From assembly GCA_902791215.1 (NCBI GenBank), contig CADAUZ010000029.1:1-64000 (forward strand): a stretch of 64,000 nucleotides of DNA. Direction: 5' to 3'. The notes below the pieces were generated by a model, which was given only the letters and a program-made list of their open reading frames with translations, was not told where the DNA came from and ran no database searches. Origin of the DNA: Oscillospiraceae bacterium (lineage in GTDB: Bacteria; Bacillota; Clostridia; Oscillospirales; Oscillospiraceae). Positions 29,180 to 44,921 of this stretch are shown here, piece after piece. How positions within the stretch are numbered: the stretch's first letter is position 1; each line of letters begins with the position of its first letter. A program made the translations under genes and the position numbers.

Positions 29180-31062
29180 ACATGCGGGAAAAAATACAGA
29201 ATCTTGAACAGTTCAAGGCATTACAGGAAAAATTCATGCAGGCCCGCGCGAATGAAAAGCGCAAGGTCCTCGTCTGCTGCGGCACCGGCTGCGCTGCCGG
29301 CGGCAACCTCGCCGTCTATGAGGAACTGAAAGCCCAGATGGAGGCCCACGGCGCGGCCTTTGAGCTCAGCCTGAACGACACTTGCGGCGCGGCCACCGGC
29401 ATCAAGAAGTCCGGCTGCCACGGCTTTTGCGAGATGGGGCCCCTGGTGCGCATCGAGCCGGAAGGCTGGCTCTACACCAAGGTCCACGCCGAGGATGTGG
29501 CCGAGATCGTGGAGAAGACGATCCTCGGCGGCGAGTTTATCGAGCGCCTCGGCTACCACCAGAACGGCCAGCTCTACAAGCGCCAGGAGGATATCCCCTT
29601 CTACAAGAAGCAGACCCGCCGCGTGCTCGAGCACTGCGGCCACATCGACGCCGAGAGCATCGAGGAATACTTCTCCATCGGCGGCTACCAGGCCCTTGCC
29701 AAGGCCCTGTTCGAGATGAGCGGGGACGAGGTCATCCAGGAGGTCACGGACTCCGGCCTGCGCGGCCGCGGCGGCGCGGGCTTCCCCACCGGCAAGAAGT
29801 GGGCCCAGGTCGCGGCACACACGGAAGAGCCTGTCAAGTACATCGTCTGCAACGGCGACGAGGGCGACCCCGGCGCGTTCATGGACCGCTCCTGCATGGA
29901 GGGCGACCCCCACAAGATCCTCGAGGGCATGATCATCGCGGGCGTGGCCACCGGCTCCACCGAGGGCTACATCTATGTCCGCGCGGAGTACCCGCTGGCA
30001 GTCTCCCGTCTGACCATCGCGATCGGGCAGGCTGAGGAATACGGCCTCATCGGCGACGATATCCTCGGCAGCGGCAAGAGCTTCCATATGCACATCAACA
30101 AGGGCGCGGGCGCCTTCGTCTGCGGCGAGGGCTCGGCCATGACCGCCTCCATCGAAGGCAACCGCGGCATGCCGCGCACCAAGCCCCCCAGAAGCGTCGA
30201 CAAGGGCCTGTTTGGAAAACCCACATGTCTCAACAATGTCGAGACCTTCGCAAACGTCCCCGACATCATCAAAAAGGGCGCCGCCTGGTTTCGCTCCGTC
30301 GGCACCGAGAAGAGCCCCGGCACCAAGGCCTTTGCCCTGACCGGCAATGTGGTGAACACCGGCCTCATTGAGGTCCCCATGGGCACCACGCTGCGTGAGG
30401 TCGTCTACGACATCGGCGGCGGCATCAAAAACGGCAAGAAGTTCAAGGCCGTGCAGATCGGCGGCCCCTCCGGCGGATGTCTCACCGAGGAGCACCTGGA
30501 CCTGCCCATGGACTTCGACTCCCTCAAGAAGGTGGGCGCGATCATCGGCTCCGGCGGTCTGGTCGTCATGGACGAGGACAGCTGCATGGTCAACATCGCG
30601 CAGTTCTTCATGAACTTCATCTGCGAGGAATCCTGCGGCAAGTGCACCCCCTGCCGCGAGGGCACCACCCGCATGAACGAGATCCTCAAGCGCATCACCA
30701 GCGGCAAGGGCCGCATGAGCGACCTTGACGAGCTCAGAGACCTGGCCGAGATGATCCAGGTATCCTCCCTGTGCGGTCTGGGCAAGACGGCCCCGAACCC
30801 CGTTTTGTCCACGCTCCAGAACTTTGAGGAGGAATACATCGAGCATATCCGTGACAAGCGCTGCCACTGCGGCACCTGCAAGGCACTGAGCCAGTACGTC
30901 ATCACGGACAAGTGCATCGGCTGCACCAGATGCGCGCGCAACTGCCCGGTCGAGGCCATCACCGGCACGCCGCGCCACAAACACGTCATCGACACCACGC
31001 GCTGCATCAAGTGCGGCACCTGCAAAGACAACTGCCCGGTCGGCGCCATCAGGGAGGGTTAA
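29176..31062 (+). CDS. hydB: Hydrogenase NADH-binding subunit HydB (NuoF-like)
   Basis: A 628-residue flavoprotein subunit. I start it at ATG 29176 (ATG 29182 is the alternative, with better spacing to GAGGGGAGG); the longer frame merely shadows hydC. Domains in order: thioredoxin-like [2Fe-2S] domain (CCGTGC, CHGFC), the NuoF FMN/NADH domain (RGRGGAGFPTGKKWA, CNGDEGDPGAFMDRS), SLBB, the N3-type cluster ESCGKCTPCREGTTRM, and two C-terminal 4Fe-4S ferredoxin motifs (CIGCTRCARNCP and CIKCGTCKDNCP). This is the layout of electron-bifurcating HydB, which oxidises or reduces NAD(H) together with ferredoxin. Confidence 0.92.
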   Translation: MNMREKIQNLEQFKALQEKFMQARANEKRKVLVCCGTGCAAGGNLAVYEELKAQMEAHGAAFELSLNDTCGAATGIKKSGCHGFCEMGPLVRIEPEGWLYTKVHAEDVAEIVEKTILGGEFIERLGYHQNGQLYKRQEDIPFYKKQTRRVLEHCGHIDAESIEEYFSIGGYQALAKALFEMSGDEVIQEVTDSGLRGRGGAGFPTGKKWAQVAAHTEEPVKYIVCNGDEGDPGAFMDRSCMEGDPHKILEGMIIAGVATGSTEGYIYVRAEYPLAVSRLTIAIGQAEEYGLIGDDILGSGKSFHMHINKGAGAFVCGEGSAMTASIEGNRGMPRTKPPRSVDKGLFGKPTCLNNVETFANVPDIIKKGAAWFRSVGTEKSPGTKAFALTGNVVNTGLIEVPMGTTLREVVYDIGGGIKNGKKFKAVQIGGPSGGCLTEEHLDLPMDFDSLKKVGAIIGSGGLVVMDEDSCMVNIAQFFMNFICEESCGKCTPCREGTTRMNEILKRITSGKGRMSDLDELRDLAEMIQVSSLCGLGKTAPNPVLSTLQNFEEEYIEHIRDKRCHCGTCKALSQYVITDKCIGCTRCARNCPVEAITGTPRHKHVIDTTRCIKCGTCKDNCPVGAIREG

Positions 31063-31065
31063 GCA

Positions 31066-32778
31066 ATGAGTGAAAAGAAAATGATCATCGACGGCATCGA
31101 ATGTCCGTTCACCGACGAGCGCAACGTGCTCGAGGTCGCGAAAAACAACGGGATCGACATCCCCTCGCTGTGCTACTGCGAAAACCTCTCCATCTACGGC
31201 GGCTGCCGCCTGTGTCTGGTGGAAAACGAGAAGGGCGTGCTGGACGCGGCCTGCTCCATGCAGCCGAGAAACGGCCTAGTCGTCAAGACCCACAGCGAAA
31301 AGGTGCTCAAGAGCCGTCACACCACGCTCCAGCTCCTCATGAGCAGCCACCGGGCCGAGTGTCTGACCTGTGAGCAGAGCGGCCACTGCAAGCTTCAGGA
31401 GTACGCCCACCGCTACAACGTGGTGGAGCCGCGCTTCGCTGAGAACACCTATTCCCACGAGCGCCTGGACGTCTCCTCCCCCTGCATCACCCGCGACCCC
31501 TCCAAGTGCATCCTCTGCGGCCTGTGCGTGCGCATGTGCTCCGAGGTACAGAATATCGGCGCCATAGACTTCACCAAGCGCGGCAAGAAGGCCATCGTGG
31601 CCCCGGGCTTCGGCAAGATGCTCATCGAGACCGGCTGCGTCGGCTGCGGCCAGTGCGCGGCGGTATGTCCCACCGGCGCCCTCACCATCAACCGCCAGAT
31701 CCCCGAGATGTGGCGCATGCTCAACGACCCCAACAAGCGCGTCGTGGTGCAGTTTGCCCCCAGCGTGCGCGTCGGCCTTGCCGAGGAGTTCGGCATGCCC
31801 GCCAATGAGCCCGTCACCGGCAAGCTCGTCACCGCCCTGCGCCGCCTGGGTGTGGACGTGGTGTACGACACGAATCTCTCCGCCGACCTCACCATCATGG
31901 AGGAGAGCGCGGAATTTCTCGAGAAGGTCAAGTCCGGCGCCAAGCTCCCCATGTTCACCTCCTGCTGCCCCGGCTGGATTCAGCATGTCGAGAAGGCCCA
32001 CCCGGAGCTGATGCCCCAGGTGTCCACCTGCGGCAGCCCCATGGAGATGCTGGGCGCGCTCATCCGCCAGCAGTTCAATAACGGCAATGACTCTAAGGGA
32101 GATGACGATGTCTACTCCGTGGCGATCATGCCATGCACCGCCAAGAAGTTTGAGGCCCAGCGCCCCGAGCTCGTAAAGGACGGCAAGCGTCTGATTGACC
32201 TCGTGCTCACCACCGACGAGCTGGCAAGGCTCCTCAAGGCTGCCGGCATCGACCTCAAGAACCTGCCCGACTCTGAGCCGGACAGCCCCCTCGGCGACTA
32301 CACCGGCGCGGGCGTCATCTTCGGCGTCACGGGCGGCGTGACCGAGGCCGTCATCCGCCGCGTCCTGGACGACGCCTCCCCCGAGGCGCTCAAGACCATT
32401 GCCGAATGCGGCGTGCGCGGGCTGGAGGGTATCAAGGCCTTCACCGTGACGGCGGGCGATCTGAGCCTCAAAATCGCGGTGGCAAACGGTCTCGGCAACG
32501 CCGACAAGCTCATCGAGAAGGTGCAGAGCGGCGAGGAGTACTTCGACTTCATCGAGGTCATGGCCTGCCCCAACGGCTGCATCGGCGGCGGCGGTCAGCC
32601 CCCCGCCTCCAACGCCCGCAAGCGTGAGCGCATGGAAGCCATCTTCAAGGCCGATGACGCCTGCGAGCTCAAGCTCCCGCAGCAGAACCCCGCCCTGGGC
32701 TACGTCTATGACGAGCTTCTCAAGGGCCGCGCCCACGAGCTGCTGCACATCCACTATCCCCTGCACCATCAGCACTGA
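31066..32778 (+). CDS. hydA: FeFe-hydrogenase catalytic subunit HydA
   Basis: A 570-residue H-cluster protein starting three bases after hydB. N-terminal relay: plant-type [2Fe-2S] (CYCENLSIYGGCRLC), a His-ligated 4Fe-4S (HRAECLTCEQSGHC) and two 4Fe-4S motifs (CILCGLCVRMC, CVGCGQCAAVCP). H-cluster motifs: L1 TSCCPGW (298-304), L2 MPCTAKK (from 355), L3 MACPNGCIGGGGQP (from 499). The position that is a conserved lysine in most enzymes (K358 of Clostridium pasteurianum CpI) is glycine 323 here (STCGSP). No maturases (hydEFG) are in the window. With HydB and HydC it forms a complex that likely couples H2, NADH and ferredoxin. Confidence 0.95.
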   Translation: MSEKKMIIDGIECPFTDERNVLEVAKNNGIDIPSLCYCENLSIYGGCRLCLVENEKGVLDAACSMQPRNGLVVKTHSEKVLKSRHTTLQLLMSSHRAECLTCEQSGHCKLQEYAHRYNVVEPRFAENTYSHERLDVSSPCITRDPSKCILCGLCVRMCSEVQNIGAIDFTKRGKKAIVAPGFGKMLIETGCVGCGQCAAVCPTGALTINRQIPEMWRMLNDPNKRVVVQFAPSVRVGLAEEFGMPANEPVTGKLVTALRRLGVDVVYDTNLSADLTIMEESAEFLEKVKSGAKLPMFTSCCPGWIQHVEKAHPELMPQVSTCGSPMEMLGALIRQQFNNGNDSKGDDDVYSVAIMPCTAKKFEAQRPELVKDGKRLIDLVLTTDELARLLKAAGIDLKNLPDSEPDSPLGDYTGAGVIFGVTGGVTEAVIRRVLDDASPEALKTIAECGVRGLEGIKAFTVTAGDLSLKIAVANGLGNADKLIEKVQSGEEYFDFIEVMACPNGCIGGGGQPPASNARKRERMEAIFKADDACELKLPQQNPALGYVYDELLKGRAHELLHIHYPLHHQH

Positions 32779-33858: not shown

Positions 33859-33954
33859 GTAAAACGGACATTTTCCAAATTGAATGACGAAGGATGAATA
33901 GTTATCTTCTTTTTTTGAAAACTGTGTTTCGCAATCGGCTAATCAAGTGCATAA

Positions 33955-33976
33955 GGGAGGCCCGTTTGGGCCTCCC
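33955..33976. terminator. Terminator-like hairpin after LysM peptide gene 1
   Basis: GGGAGGCCC pairs with GGGCCTCCC around a 4-nt loop, 24 bases beyond the stop of the LysM gene on the minus strand. U-tracts are weak on both sides (TTCTGTTTT on plus, TTAT on minus). Confidence 0.55.
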
Positions 33977-33999
33977 CTTCTGTTTTGTGCTGTTTGGGA

Positions 34000-34206
34000 T
34001 CAGAACTTGATCTTGAGGGTCTGACCGGGCATCAGAGCGGAATTGCTCGGGAGATTGTTCCACTTTGCCACCTGGTCAGCGGTGACATGATACTGTGCCG
34101 CGACGCTCTCCAGCGTGTCGCCCGGGTTTACCTGGTACGGGAGAATGGTGCCGCCGCCGACTGCGTCCAGTACTTCGTCGTTCAGAGCTTTCTTATTCAT
34201 CGTCAT
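34000..34206 (-). CDS. Double-glycine leader LysM peptide 1
   Basis: A 68-residue protein, start at ATG 34206 eight bases after GGAGG (the TTG upstream would place that ribosome binding site inside the gene). Residues 1-17, MTMNKKALNDEVLDAVGG, look like a class II bacteriocin/pheromone leader: L-(S/N)-D-E-x-L-x-x-V-x-GG. The rest (GTILPYQVNPGDTLESVAAQ through PGQTLKIKF) is one complete LysM domain. Predicted: cleavage after the GG by a C39-peptidase ABC exporter and release of a free peptidoglycan-binding module. No such exporter is in the window. It has its own promoter with 11-bp-spaced repeats. Two paralogues lie at 39422 and 42650. Confidence 0.75.
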   Translation of the reverse strand: MTMNKKALNDEVLDAVGGGTILPYQVNPGDTLESVAAQYHVTADQVAKWNNLPSNSALMPGQTLKIKF

Positions 34207-34265
34207 TTTCTTATCCTCCAATTCAAAGATTCCTGTTTGTGTGTTTTCTTCCTGCCTGCGTGTGT

Positions 34266-34300
34266 ATCATAGCACACGAACTGTCACACTACTGTCACAC
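34266..34300 (-). promoter_or_regulatory. Promoter of LysM peptide 1 with 11-bp-spaced direct repeats
   Basis: Minus strand: -10 TATGAT (34271-34266); then, 10 bp upstream, GTGTGACA (34289-34282) and a second GTGTGACA (34300-34293), exactly 11 bp apart. The repeats cover the -35 region, where no good -35 box exists, as expected for an activator-dependent promoter. Confidence 0.7.
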
Positions 34301-34308
34301 GCTTCTCC

Positions 34309-36339
34309 TCAGGGAGTCCAGCCGCAGAACGGGCAGGCGTCATATCCGGGAGAGAAGTGGTTGCCGCAGTTCGGGCACTCCACACGGTTGTGTTCATCCC
34401 CGATCGGATCATAGTCCGCGTACACATAGGGATTGATGTAATCGCTGTCATCAACGTCATAATACTGGTTATCATAGTAGTTGGAGCCGGCATAACCGCC
34501 CATCGTGTCATAGTAGTGGGAGCCGGCCCAGCCGCCCTGGTCGGGGATGGGGTCTGAGCTGCCGTAGATGGCAACGGAGGTGACGTTATCGGAGCTCGGG
34601 TAGTTCATATAGGTGACGGTGCAGGGAGCGCCGTCATAGAAGGTGCCGGATACGTTGCACTTCCAGCCGTCAACATAGATCTGCGTGCCGTTGGAGAGGT
34701 TGATGGCGTATCCGCCGCCGCCCTCATAGGCATAGCCGCTCATATCGCCGTAGACCGGGCCGACCTGCTCGCTGCCGTAGATATCGACGCTGTAGACGCT
34801 GGCATTGCTGATCGAGCCGCTGTAATAGGCCACGCAGGAGGCGCCGTCATAGAAGTTGCCGTAGACATTGCACTTCCAGCCGTCAACGTACAGGGAGACA
34901 CCGTTGGCGAGATTGATGGTGAAGCCGCCGCCGGATTCATAGGCCGTGCCGCTCATGGAGCCGTACTGCGGCGTGGGCGAAGGCTTGTTGCCGGAGATGT
35001 AGCAGTAGGTCACCTCAGAGCCGTTCCAGTTAAAGGAGGCGTAGGCGCCGACATAGAGGTCGCCGTCGATGTCGCACTTGCCGAAGGGGATGGAGATGGA
35101 CACGGTGTTCTCCGCCCAGATGGTCACGCTGCTGTAGTTCCAGTCGGTGACGGTGCCGGTGTAGGTGCCGCTGGGAGCGGGCTTGCTCTTGGCGGTGACA
35201 TACATGTAGGCGGTGGTGGTGCGGGCGGTCTGTCCCTGGTAGTAGAAGGTGCAGTAGGCGCCCCAGTTGTTCATGCTGGTGCTGACGTTGTCGATGGCGA
35301 GGGTGGTGCTGTATTCACCGCTGACGCTTGCGCCGAAGATGTTGCGGAAGTTCTGCACGGAGTACTCGCCGCCGTCGGGGCCGACAAACGTCCAGGTCAG
35401 GGACTCATAGGCGTTGGCACAGGAGACAAAGTAGGCGGTGCCGCCCTCGGTCTTGTTCTCGTTGGTGGGGTTCTTGGTGATAGACAGGTAGATCGGCTGC
35501 ACGGGCGCGGGCGTAGGTGCAGGCGTGGGCGCCGCGGGCGCGGGGGTGGCGGTCGGAGCCGTCAGGGCCTCGGGCTTGGGAACCGGGAAGACCTCGGTCG
35601 GGTTCTTTCTGCCGGAGAAGACCGCGTAGCTGTCGATCACGCGGGTGAGATTATTCACATCCGAAGCGGTCAGCCACTCAAAGTTGGTGCTGCTGCGCTC
35701 GGCATTGGCAAAGGCGTTGTTGCCGGCGGCGTTGTACTGCTCGGGAGAGATCCTGGCGCCGTTTTCGTCAGTGTGGCTGACGTTTCTCACGCCGTTTACG
35801 ATCTGGGTATGCTCAACGGCGTAGGCCTGGTAGCTGATGACGCCGTCCTTGAGGTTATAGGCGCTCTTGCTGGTGTAGACATCGGTGGGAGAGAGCACCA
35901 CGTTGTCATAGAACAGGTAGTTCCAGGTATCGGTGGCAGTGTCGTGGTAGGTGTCGGCAACGTCGGTGAGGATGTCCGGGAAGGATTCCTCCGCGTCCTT
36001 GTCGAGCTTGCACTCCACAAGAGCCTTTCTGTCGTTGCTGACCTCCCAGACCTTCAGGTTGGTGGAGCGGTCCTGCGGGTGCTGGGACGCGGAAACAAAC
36101 TCCAGGTTGCCGTCATGGTCAAGGTCGGTGATGGTGTAGTACCAGGGATTTACGCTGTCGTTCTGCTTGAGGGTCCCGATCTGGGAATAGATGTACGCGA
36201 GCTGGTTGTCGATGTCTGTGGGCTCGAGCGTGACGGGCTTGAGCTCTTCGGCCCAGGCGCTCACGCCGCCGCATACCGCCGCCGAGACCAGCATGGTCAT
36301 AGCCAGCAGGCAGGCGAAAATGCGCTTCGTTGTTGTCAT
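34309..36339 (-). CDS. Large secreted protein, Pro-rich linker, beta repeats, C-terminal zinc ribbon
   Basis: Start at ATG 36339 (MTTTKRIFACLLAMTMLVSA), with AAGGAGAAGG before it; signal peptide about 30 residues. The 676-residue product then has a globular domain (to about 250) rich in polar residues, a linker of PTATPAPAAPTPAPTPAP type, an Ig-like domain (YLSITKNPTNENKTEGGTAY), and three related repeats with YVDGWKCNVYGNFYDGA and similar (residues about 400-600). The tail is Tyr/Asp-rich and ends in a treble-clef zinc ribbon CPNCG...CPFCGW, a module usual in cytosolic proteins. No family recognised. It lies between LysM peptide gene 1 and the response-regulator operon, so it may belong to the same surface system. 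Confidence 0.65.
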   Translation of the reverse strand: MTTTKRIFACLLAMTMLVSAAVCGGVSAWAEELKPVTLEPTDIDNQLAYIYSQIGTLKQNDSVNPWYYTITDLDHDGNLEFVSASQHPQDRSTNLKVWEVSNDRKALVECKLDKDAEESFPDILTDVADTYHDTATDTWNYLFYDNVVLSPTDVYTSKSAYNLKDGVISYQAYAVEHTQIVNGVRNVSHTDENGARISPEQYNAAGNNAFANAERSSTNFEWLTASDVNNLTRVIDSYAVFSGRKNPTEVFPVPKPEALTAPTATPAPAAPTPAPTPAPVQPIYLSITKNPTNENKTEGGTAYFVSCANAYESLTWTFVGPDGGEYSVQNFRNIFGASVSGEYSTTLAIDNVSTSMNNWGAYCTFYYQGQTARTTTAYMYVTAKSKPAPSGTYTGTVTDWNYSSVTIWAENTVSISIPFGKCDIDGDLYVGAYASFNWNGSEVTYCYISGNKPSPTPQYGSMSGTAYESGGGFTINLANGVSLYVDGWKCNVYGNFYDGASCVAYYSGSISNASVYSVDIYGSEQVGPVYGDMSGYAYEGGGGYAINLSNGTQIYVDGWKCNVSGTFYDGAPCTVTYMNYPSSDNVTSVAIYGSSDPIPDQGGWAGSHYYDTMGGYAGSNYYDNQYYDVDDSDYINPYVYADYDPIGDEHNRVECPNCGNHFSPGYDACPFCGWTP

Positions 36340-36418
36340 GTTCCTTCTCCTTTTCATATCGGCAGCATCGCACAATACGCCTGCGGCATCTTCCGGAAAA
36401 TTTGTGCCCTGATTTCGT

Positions 36419-36460
36419 CACTTTTTCTTGAGGTACACAAAGTACATCTGCGAAAAAGTG
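36419..36460 (-). other. Leader hairpin of the secreted protein mRNA
   Basis: CACTTTTTC pairs with GAAAAAGTG (9 bp) with an inner GTAC/GTAC pairing, between the promoter at 36559 and the start codon at 36339. It lacks a U-run and may stabilise or regulate the message. Confidence 0.4.
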
Positions 36461-36558
36461 CCATCATAGCGCCCCGCGCTGTGTGCGCAGCTCCCGTTTT
36501 TCTCCCCTTTTCCGTGAACCGGGGGCTGTACGCGAGCCGCTGCCTTTGCAGCGAGGTC

Positions 36559-36587
36559 ATTATATCACAGCTCTGCAGGAAAATGAA
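36559..36587 (-). promoter_or_regulatory. Promoter upstream of the large secreted protein
   Basis: Minus strand: -35 TTCATT (36587-36582), 17-bp spacer, -10 TATAAT (36564-36559). The leader to ATG 36339 is about 210 nt. The interval 36340-36605 contains only this promoter and the leader structures. Confidence 0.6.
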
Positions 36588-36605
36588 CACAATTATGTGA
36601 ACTTT

Positions 36606-37418
36606 TTACTGATCGTCATCAAACGACCAGGCGATCTCGTCGAGCTCGGCGTGCATGACCTCGGGCCAGCTGTACTGGTTCATGTAATCGCCCAGATAGT
36701 GGTACTTGGACTCCTGCTTCTTCTCGAGCCAGTCGTAGAGATCACATTTGATGCGGTCGGTGGCGATGGCGAGACTGCCGCGCTGCTTGAGGATGATGCC
36801 GTTGAGCTTGAGCTTTGTGAAGGTGTTCTGCAGGTCCTGGCGCAGATTGGACAGATAGGAGGCCTTCTTCTCCGGGTCGCCGTCGTCCTCCCACAGGCAG
36901 GCGATGATCTCGCCGTTGCTGGTCTGGGCGCCGCGGTTGTTGATCAGCACCGCCACCAGCTCCTTGGTGCGGTTATACTTGAAGGCCACGGGCTTGCCGT
37001 CGACAAAGAGCTCAAAGTTGCCGAAGGTCTGGGCGAAGACGCGCTTGTGCTCCTTCATGACCGCCGGGTGGCGCAGCTCGTCCAGCTCCCGCGTAAGCTC
37101 CGGCTCTGCCACCGGCTTCGGCAGGATGCCGCTTGCGTGCTGCCGCAGAGCTGTGTAGCCCGCCTCTTTGTCCGTGGAGAGGTAGATGAGGTTTACGTCC
37201 GGGTACAGCTCCTGGAGATACTGGCCGAAGTCCAGGCCGCTGAGCTCGGGCAGCTCCGTGTCGATGACGGCGATGTCCGCCTCCTGCTTTCTGGCGTCGG
37301 CAAGAGCGGTCAGTCCGCTGTCGAAAAGACGCAGCTCCGCGTCGGGCCGGAGCGCGGTGAGCATTTCGCGCAGGCTCTCCCGCTCGTCCTCCGCGGCATG
37401 TACGACAAGAATGTTCAT
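36606..37418 (-). CDS. Response regulator with SARP-like winged-helix output domain
   Basis: A 270-residue receiver-plus-DNA-binding protein. The receiver (1-118) has the phosphoacceptor at D53 (VIDTELPELSGLDFG) and the lysine K101 (LPKP), but the acidic pair near the N-terminus reads AEDER. Residues about 130-205 (FGNFELFVDGKPVAFKYNRT, then KELVAVLINNRG and YLSNLRQDLQNTF) match the OmpR-like winged helix of SARP/BTAD regulators, followed by a short helical tail. SARP proteins bind direct repeats spaced 11 bp just upstream of a -10 box, precisely the arrangement at the three LysM-peptide promoters. Its start overlaps the upstream unknown gene by four bases. No histidine kinase is nearby. Confidence 0.8.
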   Translation of the reverse strand: MNILVVHAAEDERESLREMLTALRPDAELRLFDSGLTALADARKQEADIAVIDTELPELSGLDFGQYLQELYPDVNLIYLSTDKEAGYTALRQHASGILPKPVAEPELTRELDELRHPAVMKEHKRVFAQTFGNFELFVDGKPVAFKYNRTKELVAVLINNRGAQTSNGEIIACLWEDDGDPEKKASYLSNLRQDLQNTFTKLKLNGIILKQRGSLAIATDRIKCDLYDWLEKKQESKYHYLGDYMNQYSWPEVMHAELDEIAWSFDDDQ

Positions 37419-37921
37419 GCGTCCTCCTCCCTTGCCCGCTCGGGGATCTTCACCACGCGCAGCTTCTGGTTCTTCCGCTCCTCCCGGCTCATGGTCAGGG
37501 GGTTGAGCGCGCCGACCAGCAGCATCTCACCGCCGTAGACCGCCGCGTCATGCAGGGGGCCGACGCTCAGATCCGCGATCACCAGGGCCGCAAAGCGGTC
37601 GTAGTTATCCTCGTCGATCACGGGGAAATGGTGCTGCATGCGATACCAGTGCTTCGGATCGAAGGAGGGCTGGCCCACGTACAGGCGGTCCGCAGTGGCC
37701 TCCACATCCTCGGGCGAGGCCTTCTGTCCCGCCACCGCGCCGATATCGTCACAGAAAAGCATGGCATAGGCGCGCAGGATCTGATTGCGCACGGTGTCCT
37801 TTCTGCCGTCCCGCTCCACCTCCGCGTCCATCACGCGGTAATAGAAATCCTGTGAAGCCTCGCTTTTTTCAAAGCTGCACACCGCCTCGTAAAACGCCTT
37901 GTTGATCCATGCATGTGCCAT
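37415..37921 (-). CDS. Conserved-looking protein of unknown function
   Basis: A 168-residue soluble protein starting MAHAWINKAFYEAVCSFEKS. It contains tryptophan/histidine-rich stretches (DPKHWYRMQHHFPVIDEDNY) and a hydrophobic segment near AALVIADLSVGPLHDAAVYG, but no known motif. It lies 37 bases after the YdcF-like gene and overlaps the response-regulator gene by four bases, which implies coupled expression and perhaps a direct partnership with the regulator (inference). Confidence 0.6.
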   Translation of the reverse strand: MAHAWINKAFYEAVCSFEKSEASQDFYYRVMDAEVERDGRKDTVRNQILRAYAMLFCDDIGAVAGQKASPEDVEATADRLYVGQPSFDPKHWYRMQHHFPVIDEDNYDRFAALVIADLSVGPLHDAAVYGGEMLLVGALNPLTMSREERKNQKLRVVKIPERAREEDA

Positions 37922-37958
37922 GATTGCCTGCACCCTTCCTTTTATGATTACATTATAA

Positions 37959-39425
37959 TTACATTACCAGTGTTGTGATACTCGCGGTGATCAGAACGAT
38001 CACCCCCATTGCGGCCAGCTGCTGGACGCGCTGCGCCGCCATCAGGCCGATAAATTCGCGCAGAAACGCGTTCGGCCAGAAATACCATTTGGTACGGCTT
38101 CCCATACCGTCAAGGTCCCAGCCCACCTCCGAGGCGAGGATGCCGCTTCGGTAGACATGATAGTTGGAGCTGGAAAACGCCGCGTTTCCGACGCTCCCCT
38201 TCTCTTCGATGAGCCTGCGGGAAAAGAGGAGGTTTTCCCGCGTGGTCGTGGATTTCGTCTCCGGCAGGATGTACTCCTCCGGTACGCCCTTCTCCCGCAT
38301 GTAACGGGCCATGGCCTCGCCCTCGGACAGGGGCTCGTCGCCGCCCTTGCCGCCGCTCGGTACCAGGACGGCCCGCTTGCCGGTGGCCTTGAACTGGGCA
38401 TTGACAAAATTGATGGCCCGGTCCACCCTGCCCCGGATGAGCGGATAGAGCGTCCCGTCGGGCCGGATGCGGCAGCCGAGGACCAGCACATAATCCTTGT
38501 CGTAGGCAGGTTCGTGCCGCCCCGCCATCACGGAGCGGATGATCGTGGCGGCGAGCAGGCACTCAAAGTACACGAAAAGTCCCGCGTACACATTGAGCAG
38601 CACATTCCTGAGTGGGAACTGCAGCATAGACCTTGACATCCAGATGCCGAGGGCCGCGCCCCCCACCATCACGAGTGACACCGCGAGCCCCAGCATATTG
38701 GCGGGCCGCACCCCTTCATGGCGCATGAGGACGAAATTGCTCGCCGCCGTCACAAGGGCAAAGCCCACGATCACGAAGGCGGTGCGGCGCACGAAGGTCT
38801 GGGCCGTGACGATGGTGCTCACCAGAAAGGACCACACCGTCCCCACGTTTTCGCCGCGCAGGAAGCCGCAGAGCATGTCTACACGCACGAGGCTTGCCAC
38901 CAGCAGGAAGATCGCAATGCCGAGCTCGGCAGTGGCGCGGTAGGAGAAGAAGACGCGCTTTCTCTCCCGCCTCGATTCCAGGAAAAAGATCACGGCGGCT
39001 GTCAGCAGAAACAGGAAAAAGCAGGCCGTAAAGAGCTCCCAGCCGCTGAAGTTCCAGGTGATGTCGTCAAAGAGGATGCCGCCGGGATAGGAGCGGATAT
39101 GGCTTTCGATGTCGCTGTCGTACAGGCTCTGCTCGCCGAGTCCGTCCCAGTGGAGCAGCGCGTCCGTCTCCCCGTGCCCCACAGGCACGAGCCGTACGGC
39201 AAGCTCCGTCCCGTCGGCGGAGGTCTTCATCTGTGAGGCCTTCGCGATCCCCTCCGGCGAGAAGGTCAGCGCGTAGCCGTCCGCGTCCGGCGGGACCTCG
39301 AAGAAGAGCGTCAGTCCCCCGCCGCCGATGCGCAGGCACAGGAAGAACACAAGCAGCCACGCGATGCCCGCCGCCAGAAGCTTCAATAAAATGACCGGGC
39401 CGCGCTTTTCGGAAGCTCTCTTCAT
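37959..39425 (-). CDS. YdcF/SanA-family (DUF218) polytopic membrane protein
   Basis: A 488-residue protein: one N-terminal transmembrane segment, an extracytoplasmic loop of about 100 residues, then further membrane segments (roughly 130-300) and a C-terminal DUF218 domain (YVLVLGCRIRPDGTLYPLIR, VPSGGKGGDEPLSEGEAMARY, TTTRENLLFS, and SSNYHVYR). DUF218 proteins such as ElyC and SanA affect envelope and peptidoglycan precursor metabolism in E. coli. Its ATG overlaps the stop of LysM peptide gene 2 by four bases, so the two are translationally coupled. Confidence 0.8.
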   Translation of the reverse strand: MKRASEKRGPVILLKLLAAGIAWLLVFFLCLRIGGGGLTLFFEVPPDADGYALTFSPEGIAKASQMKTSADGTELAVRLVPVGHGETDALLHWDGLGEQSLYDSDIESHIRSYPGGILFDDITWNFSGWELFTACFFLFLLTAAVIFFLESRRERKRVFFSYRATAELGIAIFLLVASLVRVDMLCGFLRGENVGTVWSFLVSTIVTAQTFVRRTAFVIVGFALVTAASNFVLMRHEGVRPANMLGLAVSLVMVGGAALGIWMSRSMLQFPLRNVLLNVYAGLFVYFECLLAATIIRSVMAGRHEPAYDKDYVLVLGCRIRPDGTLYPLIRGRVDRAINFVNAQFKATGKRAVLVPSGGKGGDEPLSEGEAMARYMREKGVPEEYILPETKSTTTRENLLFSRRLIEEKGSVGNAAFSSSNYHVYRSGILASEVGWDLDGMGSRTKWYFWPNAFLREFIGLMAAQRVQQLAAMGVIVLITASITTLVM

Positions 39426-39658
39426 CGCTGGGGGATCATGATCGTTCTGCCGGGCCGGAGCTGATCGGGGTCATCGGTGAGATTGTTCAGCTCCCGCAGC
39501 ACGCGCACCGTCGTGCCGAAGCGGTGGGCCAGCACCGAAAGCTTGTCGCCGGGCTGGAGGGTGTACATGAATACCGCCCCGTTGTACGCCCCGCCGGAGA
39601 CCTGTTCCATCATGTCGTCCCCGAGCGCCTTAAGCCGGATGTTTTTCGTTCCGTTCAT
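39422..39658 (-). CDS. Double-glycine leader LysM peptide 2
   Basis: A 78-residue protein; start ATG 39658 follows GAGAGGTG. The leader MNGTKNIRLKALGDDMMEQV ends in SGG (residues 21-23), and the mature part AYNGAVFMYTLQPGDKLSVL to PGRTIMIPQR is a single LysM domain. It has the same leader-plus-LysM design as the genes at 34000 and 42650, but heads a probable operon: ydcF-like gene (four-base overlap), unknown protein, SARP-like response regulator. The LysM cores of the three are clearly diverged, so this is not a recent duplication. Confidence 0.72.
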   Translation of the reverse strand: MNGTKNIRLKALGDDMMEQVSGGAYNGAVFMYTLQPGDKLSVLAHRFGTTVRVLRELNNLTDDPDQLRPGRTIMIPQR

Positions 39659-39691
39659 AGTTTTCACCTCTCTCAGATCCATGATACGCCC

Positions 39692-39726
39692 AGTTTATCA
39701 CACAGACTGTCACAGATCCGTCACAC
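39692..39726 (-). promoter_or_regulatory. Promoter of LysM peptide 2 operon with 11-bp-spaced repeats
   Basis: Minus strand: -10-like TAAACT (39697-39692), 10-bp gap, CTGTGACA (39715-39708), and GTGTGACG (39726-39719), 11 bp apart. Geometry is identical to the other two LysM-peptide promoters. Confidence 0.65.
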
Positions 39727-39806
39727 GTTTTTTCCGCAGAACATTATACTTGCTTTATCCCGATTTTACAAGCCATGGATTCACCCCGACGCGCTCGTTT
39801 CCGTCC

Positions 39807-39834
39807 TTGACAGTGTGGGAAAGCATGTTATAAT
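39807..39834 (+). promoter_or_regulatory. Sigma-A promoter of the gtrA-like operon
   Basis: -35 TTGACA (39807-39812), 16-bp spacer, -10 TATAAT (39829-39834): consensus in both boxes. It is divergent from the LysM peptide 2 promoter. Confidence 0.8.
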
Positions 39835-39843
39835 AATCACATT

Positions 39844-39876
39844 GCCGCGTACCGCTGTGAGCGGGTGCGGCTTTTT
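39844..39876 (+). terminator. Promoter-proximal terminator/attenuator hairpin
   Basis: GCCGCGTACCGCT pairs imperfectly with AGCGGGTGCGGC and is followed by TTTTT. It starts only about three bases after the predicted transcription start and lies 27 bases ahead of the gtrA-like ATG. No plus-strand gene upstream needs a terminator here. Confidence 0.6.
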
Positions 39877-39902
39877 ACTATCGGTATAAATGAGGATGGC
39901 GC

Positions 39903-40433
39903 ATGTCACTGCTCAAAAAGCTGGACGCCCGCTTCGGTGACGCGGCGCTCTGGCAGTTTATCAAATTCAACCTTGTCTCCACCGGCATCACACTTTTACA
40001 GCTTGCGCTCGCCAATCTCCTGCCGCTCGTGTTCGACGGCGTGACCGCGAAGCTGCCGCCGCTGCTGCGTCCGGTGTTCCGGCCCGAGGCCCTGTTTGAG
40101 GGGCCGAGCCGCTATGTGGTGGACGGGGTGGTCACCTGGGGCTATGTGCTCCCCTTCTTTCTCTCCAACTTCATCGCCAATCTCTGCGGCTACTATATGA
40201 ATATGAAGACCACCTTCCGCGGCAGGGGCAGCCGGGCGGGACTGATTGCTTATCTCGTGATCATCGCCCTGCTGATCCTGTTTTCCACCTGGCTGCAGGG
40301 GTTCATCACGGCAAAGCTCTCCGTGACCGCCCTCGCGCCGCTGGCAAGGACCATCGCCGCCATGGCTGCGGGGTATGCGCAGCTGGCGGTGCTGTTCCCG
40401 CTGGAAAAATTCGTACTGTTCAAAAAGGACTGA
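39903..40433 (+). CDS. GtrA-like membrane protein
   Basis: A 176-residue protein with about four transmembrane segments and the GtrA-type start (WQFIKFNLVSTGITLLQLAL) and end (FPLEKFVLFKKD). A non-helical insert (about 45-80) lies between helices 1 and 2. GtrA-like proteins are thought to flip lipid-linked sugars, which fits the glycosyltransferase gene starting five bases after its stop. Confidence 0.75.
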   Translation: MSLLKKLDARFGDAALWQFIKFNLVSTGITLLQLALANLLPLVFDGVTAKLPPLLRPVFRPEALFEGPSRYVVDGVVTWGYVLPFFLSNFIANLCGYYMNMKTTFRGRGSRAGLIAYLVIIALLILFSTWLQGFITAKLSVTALAPLARTIAAMAAGYAQLAVLFPLEKFVLFKKD

Positions 40434-40437
40434 TCGC

Positions 40438-41748
40438 ATGGAAAAAGTCAGCGTCATCGTACCCGTGTATAACGGGGAGCAGCGCGTGGAGCGCTGCGCG
40501 GAGAGCATGCTCAGTCAGGACTACCCGGAGCTGGAGCTGATCCTGGTGGACGACGGGAGCCGGGACAGCTCCTTCGAGCTCATGCGGAAAATCGCCGCGG
40601 GCGACAGCCGTGTGAAGCTCGTCCACAAGGAAAACGGCGGCGTCTCCTCCGCCCGCAACCGCGGACTCGACGAGGCGAGCGGCACCTATATCCAGTTTGC
40701 GGATGTGGACGACTGGCTGCCCATGGACGCGACCAAGCTCCTGGTGCGGGAGATGGAAGCAAGCGGCGCCCAGCTCGTCGTCGGCGACTTCTACCGCGTC
40801 GTGGAGGGGAACGTGTCCCGAAAGGGCGCCATCGAAAAGGGAGGCATTCTCTCCCTGCGCGCCTACGCAGACCAGATGATGCTGGGCCCGGCCGACCTGT
40901 ATTTCGGCGTACTCTGGAACAAGCTCTACCGGCGGGAGATCATCGAGCTGCACGGCATCCGCATGGACGAGAGCATCAGCTACAGCGAGGACATGATCTT
41001 CAACCTCGAATACCTCCTGCACGTCCAGGCGATCGCCGTCTTGAAGGCCCCGGTCTATTATTATCAATATACGAAGGGCTCCCTGGTGGATCAGAGTCTC
41101 AATCTGAACGCCACCGTGAAGATGAAGAAAAGCGTCATCGGCTATTACAACGACTTTTTCAGGAGCACCTTTGAAACGCCGGACTACAAGGAACGCCTGC
41201 CGGTGATCTACAGCTATCTCCTGGCCGTGAGCCGTGACAGTCTGGCGCTGTCCTTCATGCCGGGCACGAAGAAGCTGAGCGAGGGCGGCGGCCTGTCCGC
41301 CCTGTCCGAGGGGCTCAAAGAGGGCTCTCCCCTGCGCAGCGCGATTTTGCTCGACAGACTGCTGACGCGCTATATGGAGAGCATCGGCCGCAGGCACAGT
41401 CTGGACGGGACCGCGGTCAGGCTTCTCTACTGCATGGACAAGCTGGGCGTGCCCTGCACGACGGAGACGCTGTGCACGCTGACCGGTCTCGGCAAAACCG
41501 CGGCGCTTGTCGCCCTGGCCCGCCTGATGGCCGAGGGGCTTGTGCGGCGGGAACCCGTCTCCGGGCAGCCCGACCTCTTTGTCTTCCAGGCCCCGGAGCT
41601 GCGGGAAGAGCTGCGGCAGCTCGACCGGGATATGGACGCGGTCTGCTTTGACGGCTTCAGCGAGGAGGAGCTTAAGCAGTATCTCGAATTTCAGCGGCGC
41701 ATCGACGGGAGCATACTCCGCCGCCTGCGCGCGGAATCGGCCCGGTGA
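40438..41748 (+). CDS. GT2 glycosyltransferase fused to MarR-like winged helix
   Basis: A 436-residue protein starting MEKVSVIVPVYNGEQRVERC. Residues 1-230 form a GT-A family 2 domain with VDDGSRDSS, KENGGVSSARNRGLD and the metal-binding FADVDDW. The C-terminal 110 residues (from about 328) look like a MarR-type winged helix: TLTGLGKTAALVALARLMAE as the helix-turn-helix, a VRREPVSGQPDLFVF wing, and the family-typical terminal helix DGFSEEELKQYLEFQRRI. I know no common GT2-MarR fusion. The gene sits between the GtrA-like gene (five-base gap) and a HAD phosphatase, whose upstream frame touches its stop. Confidence 0.75.
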   Translation: MEKVSVIVPVYNGEQRVERCAESMLSQDYPELELILVDDGSRDSSFELMRKIAAGDSRVKLVHKENGGVSSARNRGLDEASGTYIQFADVDDWLPMDATKLLVREMEASGAQLVVGDFYRVVEGNVSRKGAIEKGGILSLRAYADQMMLGPADLYFGVLWNKLYRREIIELHGIRMDESISYSEDMIFNLEYLLHVQAIAVLKAPVYYYQYTKGSLVDQSLNLNATVKMKKSVIGYYNDFFRSTFETPDYKERLPVIYSYLLAVSRDSLALSFMPGTKKLSEGGGLSALSEGLKEGSPLRSAILLDRLLTRYMESIGRRHSLDGTAVRLLYCMDKLGVPCTTETLCTLTGLGKTAALVALARLMAEGLVRREPVSGQPDLFVFQAPELREELRQLDRDMDAVCFDGFSEEELKQYLEFQRRIDGSILRRLRAESAR

Positions 41749-41762
41749 CGGAGGGAAACGGC

Positions 41763-42389
41763 ATGGAGAGTCTTTCCTTTCTCTGGGATATGGACGGGAC
41801 GCTTGTGGACTCCTACCCCGCCATTGTCCCGAACGTCATCGACGCCTGCGCGGAATACGGGTACTCCATCGACGCCGACACGGTGTACCGGAATGTGATC
41901 AAAACCTCCGTGGGGAGCTTCCTGGAAAGCCTCGACACGCCGCACACGGCGTCCGTCAAGGCGCGCTTTCAGGAGCTCAACGACACGCGCATCGAAAAGA
42001 TCCGCCCCATGTCCCGCGCGCTTGAGACGCTTTCGCGCCTCCGGGAGGCGGGGCACCGGCATTTTGTGTACACCCACCGCGGCGCGTCCTGCCGGGCGAT
42101 CCTGGAAAATTGCGGCCTGCTGCCGTATTTCACCGAGATCGTGACCGCCCTGGACGGCTATCCGAGAAAGCCCGCGCCCGACGCGATTTTTTACCTGATG
42201 AAAAAATACGCGCTCGCCCCGGCGCAATGCTACTATGTGGGCGACCGCAGCCTCGACATGGAGGCCTCCCGAAACGCTTCCATCGGCGGCATCCTGCTTC
42301 TGGTCCCGGGCAGTCCCACAGAGCCCACGGGATATGAGAGCCATGTGGTGCGTGACCTTGCGGAGCTCGGCGGATTGTTCGGCGCATAA
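41763..42389 (+). CDS. HAD-superfamily hydrolase
   Basis: A 208-residue phosphatase-like protein (MESLSFLWDMDGTLVDSYPA). HAD motifs are complete: DMDGTLVDS (nucleophile Asp), VYTHRG (Thr), RKPAPDAIFYL (Lys) and YVGDRSLDMEA (acid pair), with a helical cap as in phosphoglycolate phosphatases. I use ATG 41763, preceded by GGAGGG, rather than the GTG at 41745. It closes the three-gene operon with GtrA and GT2; the substrate could be a sugar phosphate (inference). Confidence 0.85.
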   Translation: MESLSFLWDMDGTLVDSYPAIVPNVIDACAEYGYSIDADTVYRNVIKTSVGSFLESLDTPHTASVKARFQELNDTRIEKIRPMSRALETLSRLREAGHRHFVYTHRGASCRAILENCGLLPYFTEIVTALDGYPRKPAPDAIFYLMKKYALAPAQCYYVGDRSLDMEASRNASIGGILLLVPGSPTEPTGYESHVVRDLAELGGLFGA

Positions 42390-42395
42390 GCGCAA

Positions 42396-42640
42396 AAAGG
42401 GTGCATTGCAAAATACCGGTTTTTCGCAAAATCACAGCACCATGAGCGTAGGGGAGGGGCTTGCCCCTCCCGCGCACGATAAGCTTGAACTATGAAAAAT
42501 GTACGGCGATTTCGTAAAATGCTACGATTTCGCCGTACATTGTTTCTAATGGTTGTGTTGTACTGCCGGGAGGGGCAAGCCCCTCCCCTACAGTATTCAC
42601 GGGAATTATGCTAAAAGTGATTTTTGCAGCGAGTCCCTTT
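42396..42640. mobile_element. R2 MITE-like element, copy 2
   Basis: A 245-bp element with the same ends (AAAGGGTGCATTGCAAAATA and its near-complement at the right) and the same two nested palindromes as the copy at 32821. Spacer positions between palindromes differ. It lies immediately after the HAD gene stop and next to the stop of LysM peptide gene 3; its internal stems may end both transcripts. Confidence 0.75.
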
Positions 42641-42649
42641 GCTTTTGAC

Positions 42650-42874
42650 TCAGCGGATGCGGATGACGGCACCGGCGCTGATGACGTCGGGGTTCTTGAT
42701 GCTGGGGTTGAGGGCCAGGATCTGGCTCATGGGGACCTGCGCGCGCAGGGCGATCTCAGAGAGGGTATCCCGGGGAGCGATGCGGTAGTAGATCGCAGCG
42801 CCGTCCTGCCAGAAGTTGCCGTTTGCGCCGCCGCCGGAAACGTTTGCCATGGTCTGATCGTTGATAGGATTCAT
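42650..42874 (-). CDS. Double-glycine leader LysM peptide 3
   Basis: A 74-residue protein with ATG 42874 eight bases after AAGGAG. The leader is very short, MNPINDQTMANVSGG (residues 1-15), matching the LxDxxMxxVSGG pattern of double-glycine leaders. The mature part GANGNFWQDGAAIYYRIAPR continues into a LysM domain ending SAGAVIRIR. It is a stand-alone gene with its own repeat-containing promoter. Export and cleavage by a C39-peptidase transporter are predicted, but no transporter is seen here. Confidence 0.72.
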   Translation of the reverse strand: MNPINDQTMANVSGGGANGNFWQDGAAIYYRIAPRDTLSEIALRAQVPMSQILALNPSIKNPDVISAGAVIRIR

Positions 42875-42922
42875 TTGTTTAATCTCCTTTTTTTATTATT
42901 CTTTTGCCCGGATTGCGTGTTT

Positions 42923-42957
42923 ATCATAGCACAGCTTCTGTCACACAAATGTCACAG
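42923..42957 (-). promoter_or_regulatory. Promoter of LysM peptide 3 with 11-bp-spaced repeats
   Basis: Minus strand: -10 TATGAT (42928-42923), 10-bp gap, GTGTGACA (42946-42939) and CTGTGACA (42957-42950), 11 bp apart. A stretch around the -10, TGTGCTATGATA, is shared with the LysM peptide 1 promoter. Confidence 0.7.
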
Positions 42958-43112
42958 TATGTTCTATGGAATCTTCCCCCGTTTCTTCCGGGCTGTACAC
43001 AGTATAGCATATTTTTCCGTCCCTGTACAGGGCGGAACTTCTTAATATTTATTAACGGAGTGAAGACATCGCATCGCAATGACTGCAAGCGGCGCAAAGC
43101 GCCCCATATCTT

Positions 43113-43154
43113 CACTTTCCACTTTTCACTTTTCACTTTTCACTTTTCACTTTC
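43113..43154. repeat. Heptamer tandem repeat at the end of the EAL gene
   Basis: About six near-perfect copies of CACTTTT, preceded by a GC-rich ATATGGGGCGCTTTGCGCCG-type palindrome (43090-43109 on the opposite strand). The stop codon of the GGDEF/EAL gene lies inside the array. The rest of 42960-43112 shows no gene. Confidence 0.75.
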
Positions 43155-44921
43155 GTTGTCTCCCTGCCAGCTTCTGCGGAAGACCGCCCGCTCCTCGGGG
43201 GTCTCGTAGTCCTTCAGCGGCTGCCCGCCCCTGATGCGAAACAGCAGATCGTCCAGCGGCTCGGGCCGGGAATAATAGTAGCCCTGCGCAAGCTCACACT
43301 CGATGCCTCGCACGAAGCCGAGCTGGTCGGTATCCTCCAGCCCCTCGATGAGCGTATGCAACCCCAGCTTCTTTGCGACCTGCACAAGCTCCCTGAGGAT
43401 CACGCGGTTGATGCCGCCGTTATCCTCCAGGTGGCGCAGCAGCTCCATGTCGTACTTGATGAGGTCAAACTGAAACTGGCTGAACATGTTGATGGCGGAA
43501 TAGCCGCTGCCGAAATCGTCCAGCCACAGGCCGTAGCCGTTTTCCTGTATGCACCGGAGCTGTTCGCGGAAGCGCTCGGCCCCCATGGCCATGTCCTGCT
43601 CGGTGATCTCGACGATCAGACTGTCCCTGCCAACATAGCGGGAAAGCTCGTATTTTTCGTAGAACGTATTCATGCAGCCCACGATGTCCACATGGTCGAA
43701 ATCCTGACGCGAGAAGTTCACCGACACCGGCACAATCGGCAGGCCGTTTTCGTGGCGCAGGGGGATCTCGCGGCACACCTGCTCGAGCATATAGAGATCG
43801 AGCTTGTAAAGCTGGTGGTACTCCTGCAAAGTCGGGATGAAATCCGCCGGGGAAATGATGCCGCGCACCGGGTCAACCCATCTGGCCAGCGCCTCCATCG
43901 CCGCGATCTTCTGAGAGCTGACGCGGGTGATGCCCTGGTAATAGACCTTGATCCAATGCTTTTCCAGCGCCCGGTCAATGTTTTCGATGATATAGCGCTT
44001 CTGCCAGTAGCGCTCGTCCGCCGCCCGGGAGAAGAAGGCCCAGGTGCGCGTCATGTCGTTGTTGATGCGGCGCAGGGCGTGGCGGGCGTGGTCCAGGGCC
44101 TCGGTGGCGCTCTGATTCTCGCCGATCTCGCAGATGCCGACGCGGATGCCGGTGGTGATGCCCTTTGCCTCGCTCTTGATCCTGGCGTTGGCCTTTTCGA
44201 TCCCGGCGGTGATCGCCTCGGGGCTTGTGAGCTCGGTGATGAGGGCAAAGCGGTCGATGGCCCCGCGCACCACCAGCGCCCCCGGGAAGGCCTCCTTCAA
44301 TGACGCTGCCACCAGGCGCAGAAGCTCATCCCCCTCCTGCACGCCGTAGCGGTTGTTGTACGACTGCATGGAATACACATCCGCAAACAGCAGCACGGGC
44401 TTCTTCCCCTGCACGTACAGCACCCGCGCCCGCGCGTCGGCAAACTCGTGGAAGTAGTTAAGGTTCGGCAGGCCCGTCAGCGGGTCGCTGTAAAACCGGT
44501 CCTTGCGGAACAGATCGTAATTCTGCGTGATGGTGACCATCTTCTCGGTCGTTTCCGTCACGTTCAGATAGCCGATCACCGCGAGCTCCTCCCCGTCGGG
44601 CATGCGCTGCCACTGGCCGAAGCCGTGGATATACTGATAGTCCCCGCCGAGACGGCAGCGAAAGATCACGTCGTAGGGGCCCTCGCGGCGCATGAAGTCC
44701 CGGCTGATCTTGGACACCACGCCCACATCGTCCGGGTGCATGCGCTCAAACATCCCGCTGGACAGCCACGGGAACAGATGCTCCCGGTCCACGCCGACAT
44801 TTTTGCAGAAGCCGTCCGACGCGAGCACGGGCACGGCTTTTTCGTCCGTCACCTCGTAGTACACAAAGGAGAGCGGGCTGCTCTCGTAATGCCGTCTCAT
44901 ATCTTCCGGAAAGATGTACAT
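43140..44921 (-). CDS. PAS-GGDEF-EAL protein, probable c-di-GMP phosphodiesterase
   Basis: A 593-residue cytosolic signalling protein with an N-terminal PAS-like domain (about 10-120), a GGDEF-fold domain (150-300) and an EAL domain (310-575). The cyclase signature is degenerate (RGAIDRFAL where RxGGDEF is expected), so it should not make c-di-GMP. The EAL residues look intact: MEALARW, NFSRQDF, VEITEQD, LDDFGSGYS, KYDMELL, EGLED and QGYYYSRP. It therefore probably hydrolyses c-di-GMP, perhaps tuned by GTP or PAS ligands. Its stop lies in a heptamer repeat array. Confidence 0.85.
   Translation of the reverse strand: MYIFPEDMRRHYESSPLSFVYYEVTDEKAVPVLASDGFCKNVGVDREHLFPWLSSGMFERMHPDDVGVVSKISRDFMRREGPYDVIFRCRLGGDYQYIHGFGQWQRMPDGEELAVIGYLNVTETTEKMVTITQNYDLFRKDRFYSDPLTGLPNLNYFHEFADARARVLYVQGKKPVLLFADVYSMQSYNNRYGVQEGDELLRLVAASLKEAFPGALVVRGAIDRFALITELTSPEAITAGIEKANARIKSEAKGITTGIRVGICEIGENQSATEALDHARHALRRINNDMTRTWAFFSRAADERYWQKRYIIENIDRALEKHWIKVYYQGITRVSSQKIAAMEALARWVDPVRGIISPADFIPTLQEYHQLYKLDLYMLEQVCREIPLRHENGLPIVPVSVNFSRQDFDHVDIVGCMNTFYEKYELSRYVGRDSLIVEITEQDMAMGAERFREQLRCIQENGYGLWLDDFGSGYSAINMFSQFQFDLIKYDMELLRHLEDNGGINRVILRELVQVAKKLGLHTLIEGLEDTDQLGFVRGIECELAQGYYYSRPEPLDDLLFRIRGGQPLKDYETPEERAVFRRSWQGDNESEK

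Follow-up and report, generated by a model that had tools for sequence, protein, structure and literature searches.

A 34-base promoter element, here called the box, stands before three genes for short LysM peptides in a 64,000-nucleotide stretch of an Oscillospiraceae genome (contig CADAUZ010000029.1, positions 1 to 64,000; hereafter the window), and the same element recurs across that genome and in related loci. Very probably this box is an activator-dependent promoter that is read by RR1, a regulator encoded between the three genes, and controls a dispersed extracytoplasmic regulon whose main cargo, where an exporter exists, consists of wall-binding peptides with a double-glycine (GG) leader.

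The box follows the pattern TGTGAY-N5-TGTGAY-N6-TGTG-N-TANNNT, that is, two direct repeats 11 bp apart and an extended -10 element, and its three window copies (P1 to P3, Table 1) match it exactly. The initial annotation had described TGTGACA repeats of exact 11-bp periodicity at the three promoters, ending 10 bp before a -10 and lacking a -35. The periodicity is found at the places described, as is the distance of 10 bp between the end of the 7-mer TGTGACA and the -10; one copy at P2 reads TGTGACG. Overlooked at that stage was a further TGTG (the third), 12 bp beyond the second repeat, which provides the TG of the extended -10 and is consistent with the missing -35. No other match to the box with up to four mismatches occurs in the window. 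The paired repeat alone occurs eight times, a count that none of 100 shuffles attained (mean 2.75). A degenerate repeat, read by eye before the gene at 34309-36375, has about six mismatches and was dropped. An Rfam scan of positions 33900-43200 gave no match.

Table 1. Promoter boxes and genes of the window discussed in the text (aa, amino acids; SD, Shine-Dalgarno sequence; ORF, open reading frame).
Feature	Position	Strand	Description
LysM peptide 1	34000..34206	minus	68 aa, leader ending ..LDAVGG(G); SD; ORF 59 bases after P1; LysM 7.6e-15 on longer ORF
P1	34266..34299	minus	TGTGAC-AGTAG-TGTGAC-AGTTCG-TGTG-C-TATGAT; exact match to box; -10 TATGAT
Predicted secreted protein	34309..36375	minus	688 aa, zinc-ribbon-like C-terminal end; no box at up to 4 mismatches upstream in the window
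RR1	36606..37418	minus	degenerate receiver and SARP-type winged helix; proposed activator
p165	37415..37933	minus	conserved partner gene of RR1; overlaps RR1 start
DUF218 membrane protein	37959..39425	minus	between LysM peptide 2 and p165; PF02698 1.7e-23; homologue in 19/80 loci
LysM peptide 2	39422..39658	minus	78 aa, leader ending ..MMEQVSGG; SD; ORF 33 bases after P2; LysM 1.9e-9 on longer ORF
P2	39692..39725	minus	TGTGAC-GGATC-TGTGAC-AGTCTG-TGTG-A-TAAACT; exact match to box; -10 TAAACT
LysM peptide 3	42650..42874	minus	74 aa, leader ending ..MANVSGG; SD; ORF 48 bases after P3; LysM 8.5e-11
P3	42923..42956	minus	TGTGAC-ATTTG-TGTGAC-AGAAGC-TGTG-C-TATGAT; exact match to box; -10 TATGAT

As a whole, the source genome (3,187,904 bases in 67 contigs) contains 13 exact boxes, a number that rises to 15, 19 and 22 when up to one, two and three mismatches are allowed; the reversed pattern, used as a control, gives none. 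As a spacing control, a pattern with one extra base between the second repeat and the third TGTG finds 2 sites at up to three mismatches instead of 22. Short GG-leader genes lie behind 12 of the 19 sites with up to two mismatches, and the three window genes are precursors of this kind, a point absent from the initial annotation. Five of the 12 encode LysM domains (three of them in the window), one a CW_7 domain (1.2e-29), one an SH3_3-like domain (4.7e-5, below cut-off) and one a PepSY-like domain (below cut-off), while four have no cargo-domain match; the LysM at C4:73117 was assigned through its near-identity to a scanned peptide of contig C40, and the pair on C34 was counted once. A genome-wide scan had been proposed with the initial annotation, and it finds the box elsewhere mostly at linked kinds of gene. 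The suggestion that the three window genes form one regulon is supported, as part of a far larger set of about 19 promoters in this genome.

Conservation was assessed in the best 80 of 150 loci encoding RR1 relatives (1.146 Mb in total). The box is present at up to two mismatches in 42 of these loci and exactly in 19, and the reversed pattern is absent from the whole 1.146 Mb; the comparison of orthologous promoters that had also been proposed at the outset finds the motif conserved. Spacing is again narrowly defined. Of the pairs TGTGAYN(k)TGTGAY with k from 0 to 16, 83 have k = 5 and 14 have k = 6, with zero to three at each other value, and TGNTANNNT stands 8 bases after 68 of the 83 pairs at k = 5, 3 bases after one, and at no other distance within 0-24. 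The k = 6 cases, all 14 of which were listed, mostly join the second repeat to the third TGTG, and an extra upstream repeat accounts for at least two (L034 and L086). Five shuffles of the 80-locus DNA held zero or one repeat pair and no full box. Under a fixed rule, a GG-leader ORF follows 63 of the 91 sites in these loci, compared with 1.04% of 16,000 random positions; the same rule finds 95 GG-leader ORFs, 62 of them with a site no more than 250 bp upstream.

The own and related sites also share preferences that the pattern does not impose, namely for T in the third and the fourth spacer position (74-85%) and for A after each repeat (58-76%), and around the predicted start they carry a conserved box approximating C, G(+1), Y, A, A. 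Several observations concern the flanks of the sites. The extra TGTGAY repeat lies 12 bp upstream of the boxes, near position 10363 in L034 and on the minus strand in L086. Some 4-16 bases past the -10 of most boxes (L030, L031 and L033, for example) the series C-G(+1)-Y-A-A-R-C can be read, often with AAGAGA after it, and CTCTTG precedes the SD in some leaders. A hairpin in the 5′ untranslated region, drawn from six hand-chosen leaders, has six pairs; none of them is changed on both sides, which gives no covariation support, and the hairpin is therefore not claimed.

The distribution of the box across genomes points to its regulator. Fifty genomes were chosen by hand from the 80 loci, and 45 of these RR1 genomes carry the exact box, with 323 sites in sum and none for the control. 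Among 150 genomes of the source family, exact boxes occur only in G000 and G109, which are also the sole carriers of an RR1 with 60% identity or more; a single site with one mismatch is found in G098, and a single control match in G130. In G004, of the same genus, the exporter is present and RR1 and the box are both absent. In a second family, that of P. xylanivorans (200 genomes), the box is found in all four genomes whose DNA-binding domain shows at least 70% identity (9, 5, 6 and 2 sites) and in 3 of the 196 without a close RR1, though many of the latter carry relatives at 27-52% identity. Fisher tests give p = 5.4e-7 for the second family and 8.9e-5 for the source family, values that ignore shared ancestry. 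Because the box and a close RR1 co-occur in both sampled families, and because its DNA-binding model fits SARP proteins best, RR1 is the best candidate for the predicted reader.

RR1 had been described initially as a SARP-like response regulator, and both halves of this name need qualification. The SARP-type fold is predicted for the DNA-binding part. A model of this part (pLDDT 86) was used for structure search, the full-length model being weak there, and the leading matches among those listed are AfsR and EmbR, with Z 13.9-14.8 across 139-145 residues, OmpR/PhoB-type domains staying at 9.6 or below; the winged helix scores below threshold for Trans_reg_C (14.7 bits against a cut-off of 26.2). 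No BTA family appears among the Pfam matches of RR1 up to E 0.1, and about 48 residues follow the winged helix. As most of the BTA domain is missing, RR1 is not a SARP by the usual definition. The receiver (PF00072, 3.2e-14) is degenerate in the family: the phospho-Asp position (D53) holds Asp in 42 of 80 relatives and E, S, A, R, G or N in 38, and the receiver Lys (K101) is kept in 55. The window copy keeps both residues and has H7 A8 in place of the N-terminal acidic pair. Given this missing pair and the 38 relatives without phospho-Asp, the term response regulator may be true of RR1 by descent only. Sequence variation among 40 relatives is concentrated in the receiver, the DNA-binding part being almost constant.

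RR1 has a constant partner. A homologue of p165 lies directly upstream of it in all 80 loci, starting 472 to 578 bases before RR1; p165 itself has no Pfam match and no PDB sequence match (E up to 1). In the window, P2 is followed on one strand by LysM peptide 2, the DUF218 gene, p165 and RR1, probably as an operon that LysM peptide 2 opens and that extends into RR1. From this same-direction run, RR1 may be under the control of its own box. In 11 of the 80 loci, the 2.8 kb before RR1 contain a box on the same strand. A promoter-like match inside the run, at 37979-37952, may give basal expression. PADLOC gave no match for RR1, p165, the DUF218 protein or the protein at 34309-36375.

A candidate route of the cargo out of the cell is suggested by the exporter genes. 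The only C39 peptidase gene of the source genome belongs to NHLP ABC1 (TIGR03796, 936.2 over a cut-off of 853.3), and NHLP ABC2 (TIGR03797) is also above its cut-off (717 over 709.4); a short HlyD-like gene of 138 aa is below threshold for TIGR03794 (28.9 bits against 156.2). ABC1 exceeds its cut-off in 41 of the 50 RR1 genomes, compared with 13 of the 150 genomes of the source family, two of these 13 having RR1. C39-ABC relatives at least 60% identical occur in 27 of the 80 loci, where matches at E 1e-8 also take in unrelated ABC genes. L088 and L092 group in one cluster p165, RR1, a dCache-HAMP-SpoIIE-HATPase protein, three GG peptides behind a box and exporter genes; the domains were scanned in L088, and L092 has intervening genes and ends inside the exporter. 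Within 59 boxed GG peptides, 38 match LysM, 10 CW_7, 3 SH3_3 and 2 PepSY, LysM and CW_7 being peptidoglycan-binding domains; no Pfam match to nitrile-hydratase or Nif11 leaders was found in the 59. Of the curated leader models for class II GG bacteriocins, PF10439 remains below threshold in two peptides of the source genome (17.9 and 15.6 bits against 27.1), as does TIGR01847 in LysM peptide 3 (12.4 against 15.7). Boxed SH3-like secreted genes were read by eye in L084 and L086.

A mechanism can be proposed. Each TGTGAY repeat would take up one RR1 protomer, the two arranged head to tail along the same face of the helix, where a -35 would usually stand. Bound RR1 would then keep the polymerase and its sigma factor at a promoter with no other recognition element than an extended -10, and would thereby turn on the dispersed extracytoplasmic regulon. 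In lineages with an NHLP-type C39 exporter, the main products would be short GG-leader precursors, which the exporter would cut after GG, releasing small folded domains (LysM, CW_7, SH3, PepSY) that may remain on or around the cell wall. Since P2 probably drives the operon from LysM peptide 2 through DUF218 and p165 to RR1, positive feedback would be expected.

Several observations weigh against this mechanism. Five of the 50 RR1 genomes have no exact box, and nine have no exporter. In four RR1 genomes that lack the exporter (G181, G183, G193 and G195), none of 21 boxed genes encodes a GG peptide, three regular-expression GG flags in proteins of 314-800 aa having been dropped by eye; many of these boxed genes have a signal-like or lipoprotein-like N-terminus and one is PepSY-like, all by eye. 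GG cargo is for this reason not the defining feature of the regulon. In the source genome, no box at up to three mismatches occurs in the exporter stretch, and 7 of the 19 sites do not precede GG-leader genes. Three of these precede larger genes with a signal peptide read by eye (two are thioredoxin-like), and three others precede, respectively, a second regulator with its histidine kinase, a zinc-ribbon membrane protein and a 66-aa membrane protein (the last two by eye); site C24:24630 has no clear gene behind it. Boxes also occur in the absence of an RR1 at least 70% identical in G209 (one), G280 (two) and G334 (three), from which it follows that related regulators may read a similar box, as those of G280 and G334 may do.

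The second regulator of the source genome (C7:2911-3651, beside a histidine kinase) deserves attention in this respect. It is 33% identical to RR1, with which it has its DNA-binding family in common, it lies in a cluster with two boxes, and it has a 2-mismatch box of its own upstream. That it, and not RR1, reads the box is nevertheless improbable: the box is mostly absent from genomes whose regulators share no more than 27-52% identity with RR1, while genomes with a close RR1 have it, and the RR1 helix SYLxNLRQDLQNT differs from that of the paralogues. The cluster (L140, positions 1232-7899 of contig C7) comprises the histidine kinase, the related regulator, a 455-aa secreted protein, an SH3-like GG peptide and a 678-aa protein similar by eye to the window protein at 34309-36375.

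The motif TGTGA is the classical half-site of CRP, and two cyclic-nucleotide-binding-like genes (family by eye) adjoin a box on contig C7, yet the binding of a CRP/FNR-type protein is highly unlikely, as the repeats are direct and not inverted, the choice of C or T at the sixth base breaks the near-palindrome, and the repeats keep a constant 11-bp spacing and a set position relative to the -10. A promoter of an alternative sigma factor would account for the fixed distance to the -10 and for the conserved bases around the predicted start, but the repeats stand 11 and 22 bp from the -10, where 16-19 is usual, two copies in helical phase suggest a tandem activator, and the box tracks a DNA-binding regulator; this reading is very unlikely. 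All three window genes encode LysM peptides, and their promoters could be alike only through recent gene duplication, an idea that is hardly credible given variable spacer bases and contradicted by boxes before CW_7, SH3-like, PepSY, thioredoxin-like and unrelated secreted genes, both in this genome and in other genera.

Activation by RR1 at the box remains the preferred explanation, and it can be extended, tentatively, to p165. The two proteins may form a split, phosphorylation-independent SARP-like activator in which p165 contributes the activating or sensing portion that RR1 lacks, and a partner switch of the phosphatase/anti-sigma type, often found among the neighbouring genes, may provide the input; the envelope regulon would send SH3 or PepSY cargo through GG/C39 export or general secretion, according to lineage. 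This extended proposal is rather doubtful. SpoIIE-type or STAS genes occur in 29 of the 80 loci, a count without a background rate.

Elsewhere in the region, the protein at 34309-36375 has relatives in 21 of the 80 RR1 loci, with boxed orthologues in L035, L038, L039 and L049. Sigma-70-like matches number nine in the region, compared with 2.8 in shuffles. Two of this type on the minus strand, at 39771-39743 and 43029-43001, lie upstream of P2 and P3 and might add basal transcription. A perfect TTGACA-16-TATAAT with TG, on the plus strand at 39807-39834, faces a GtrA-type gene at 39903. Further away, ORFs at 28706-32778 resemble by eye NuoE, NuoF and an iron-only hydrogenase.

The unstudied RR1-p165 pair, present across ruminant gut Clostridia, is now tied to a box that can be read in the sequence, so that the regulon can be named in any genome. 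C39 exporters are usually discussed for bacteriocins and signals, and the present data suggest that in these bacteria they carry small wall-binding domains; wall decoration, killing, signalling and protection are candidate roles for the exported peptides outside the cell. Regulator and box can be tested directly in culture, since both occur in Pseudobutyrivibrio isolates, P. xylanivorans DSM 14809 among them. No description of this regulon was found in the literature searched, outside of which lie most subscription journals and all preprints.

Class II bacteriocin and Com/Blp regulons likewise have dispersed GG peptides, one regulator and direct-repeat promoters. They differ from the present system in that the regulator here has a predicted SARP fold and not LytTR, and the cargo consists of domain proteins. 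NHLP/NHLM bacteriocin export shares with it the C39-ABC (TIGR03796) and the second ABC (TIGR03797) above cut-off, whereas the HlyD partner is here shortened to 138 aa and the cargo is made of ordinary wall-binding domains behind short GG leaders. PhoB/OmpR response regulators resemble RR1 in their receiver and winged helix, and their pho-box has tandem repeats about one turn apart; RR1 differs from them in its weaker fold match (Z of at most 9.6), Trans_reg_C score below cut-off and often missing phospho-Asp. MAM of Faecalibacterium is also a GG-leader protein of a gut Clostridium, for which envelope export by a neighbouring C39 transporter has been proposed, but it is a single abundant protein described as having a three-helix core (PMC12184118). 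The main text of that paper mentions neither 'regulator' nor 'LysM', and that of the Hungate1000 bacteriocin paper (PMC13289728) does not mention LysM, NHLP or SH3.

A further close parallel is offered by the SARP activators, whose geometry the initial annotation had recognized in these promoters. As reported for AfsR (PMC10936776) and OtcR (PMC4393881), they combine an OmpR-type DNA-binding fold with 11-bp direct repeats over the -35 position and a weak or missing -35, as is the case here. For AfsR, adjacent binding to a pair of 11-bp repeats is reported, together with docking of sigma region 4 to which the BTA domain contributes (PMC10936776). The direct repeats agree with this geometry, and the distance depends on the count: in published SARP sites the 3′ repeat lies 8 bp from the -10, while the 7-mer here ends 10 bp away, a gap that becomes 8 bp only if the repeat is taken as 9 bases. 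RR1 differs from these activators in its receiver placed in front, the lack of a full BTA domain, a conserved partner gene, the TGTGAY sequence and a Clostridia host.

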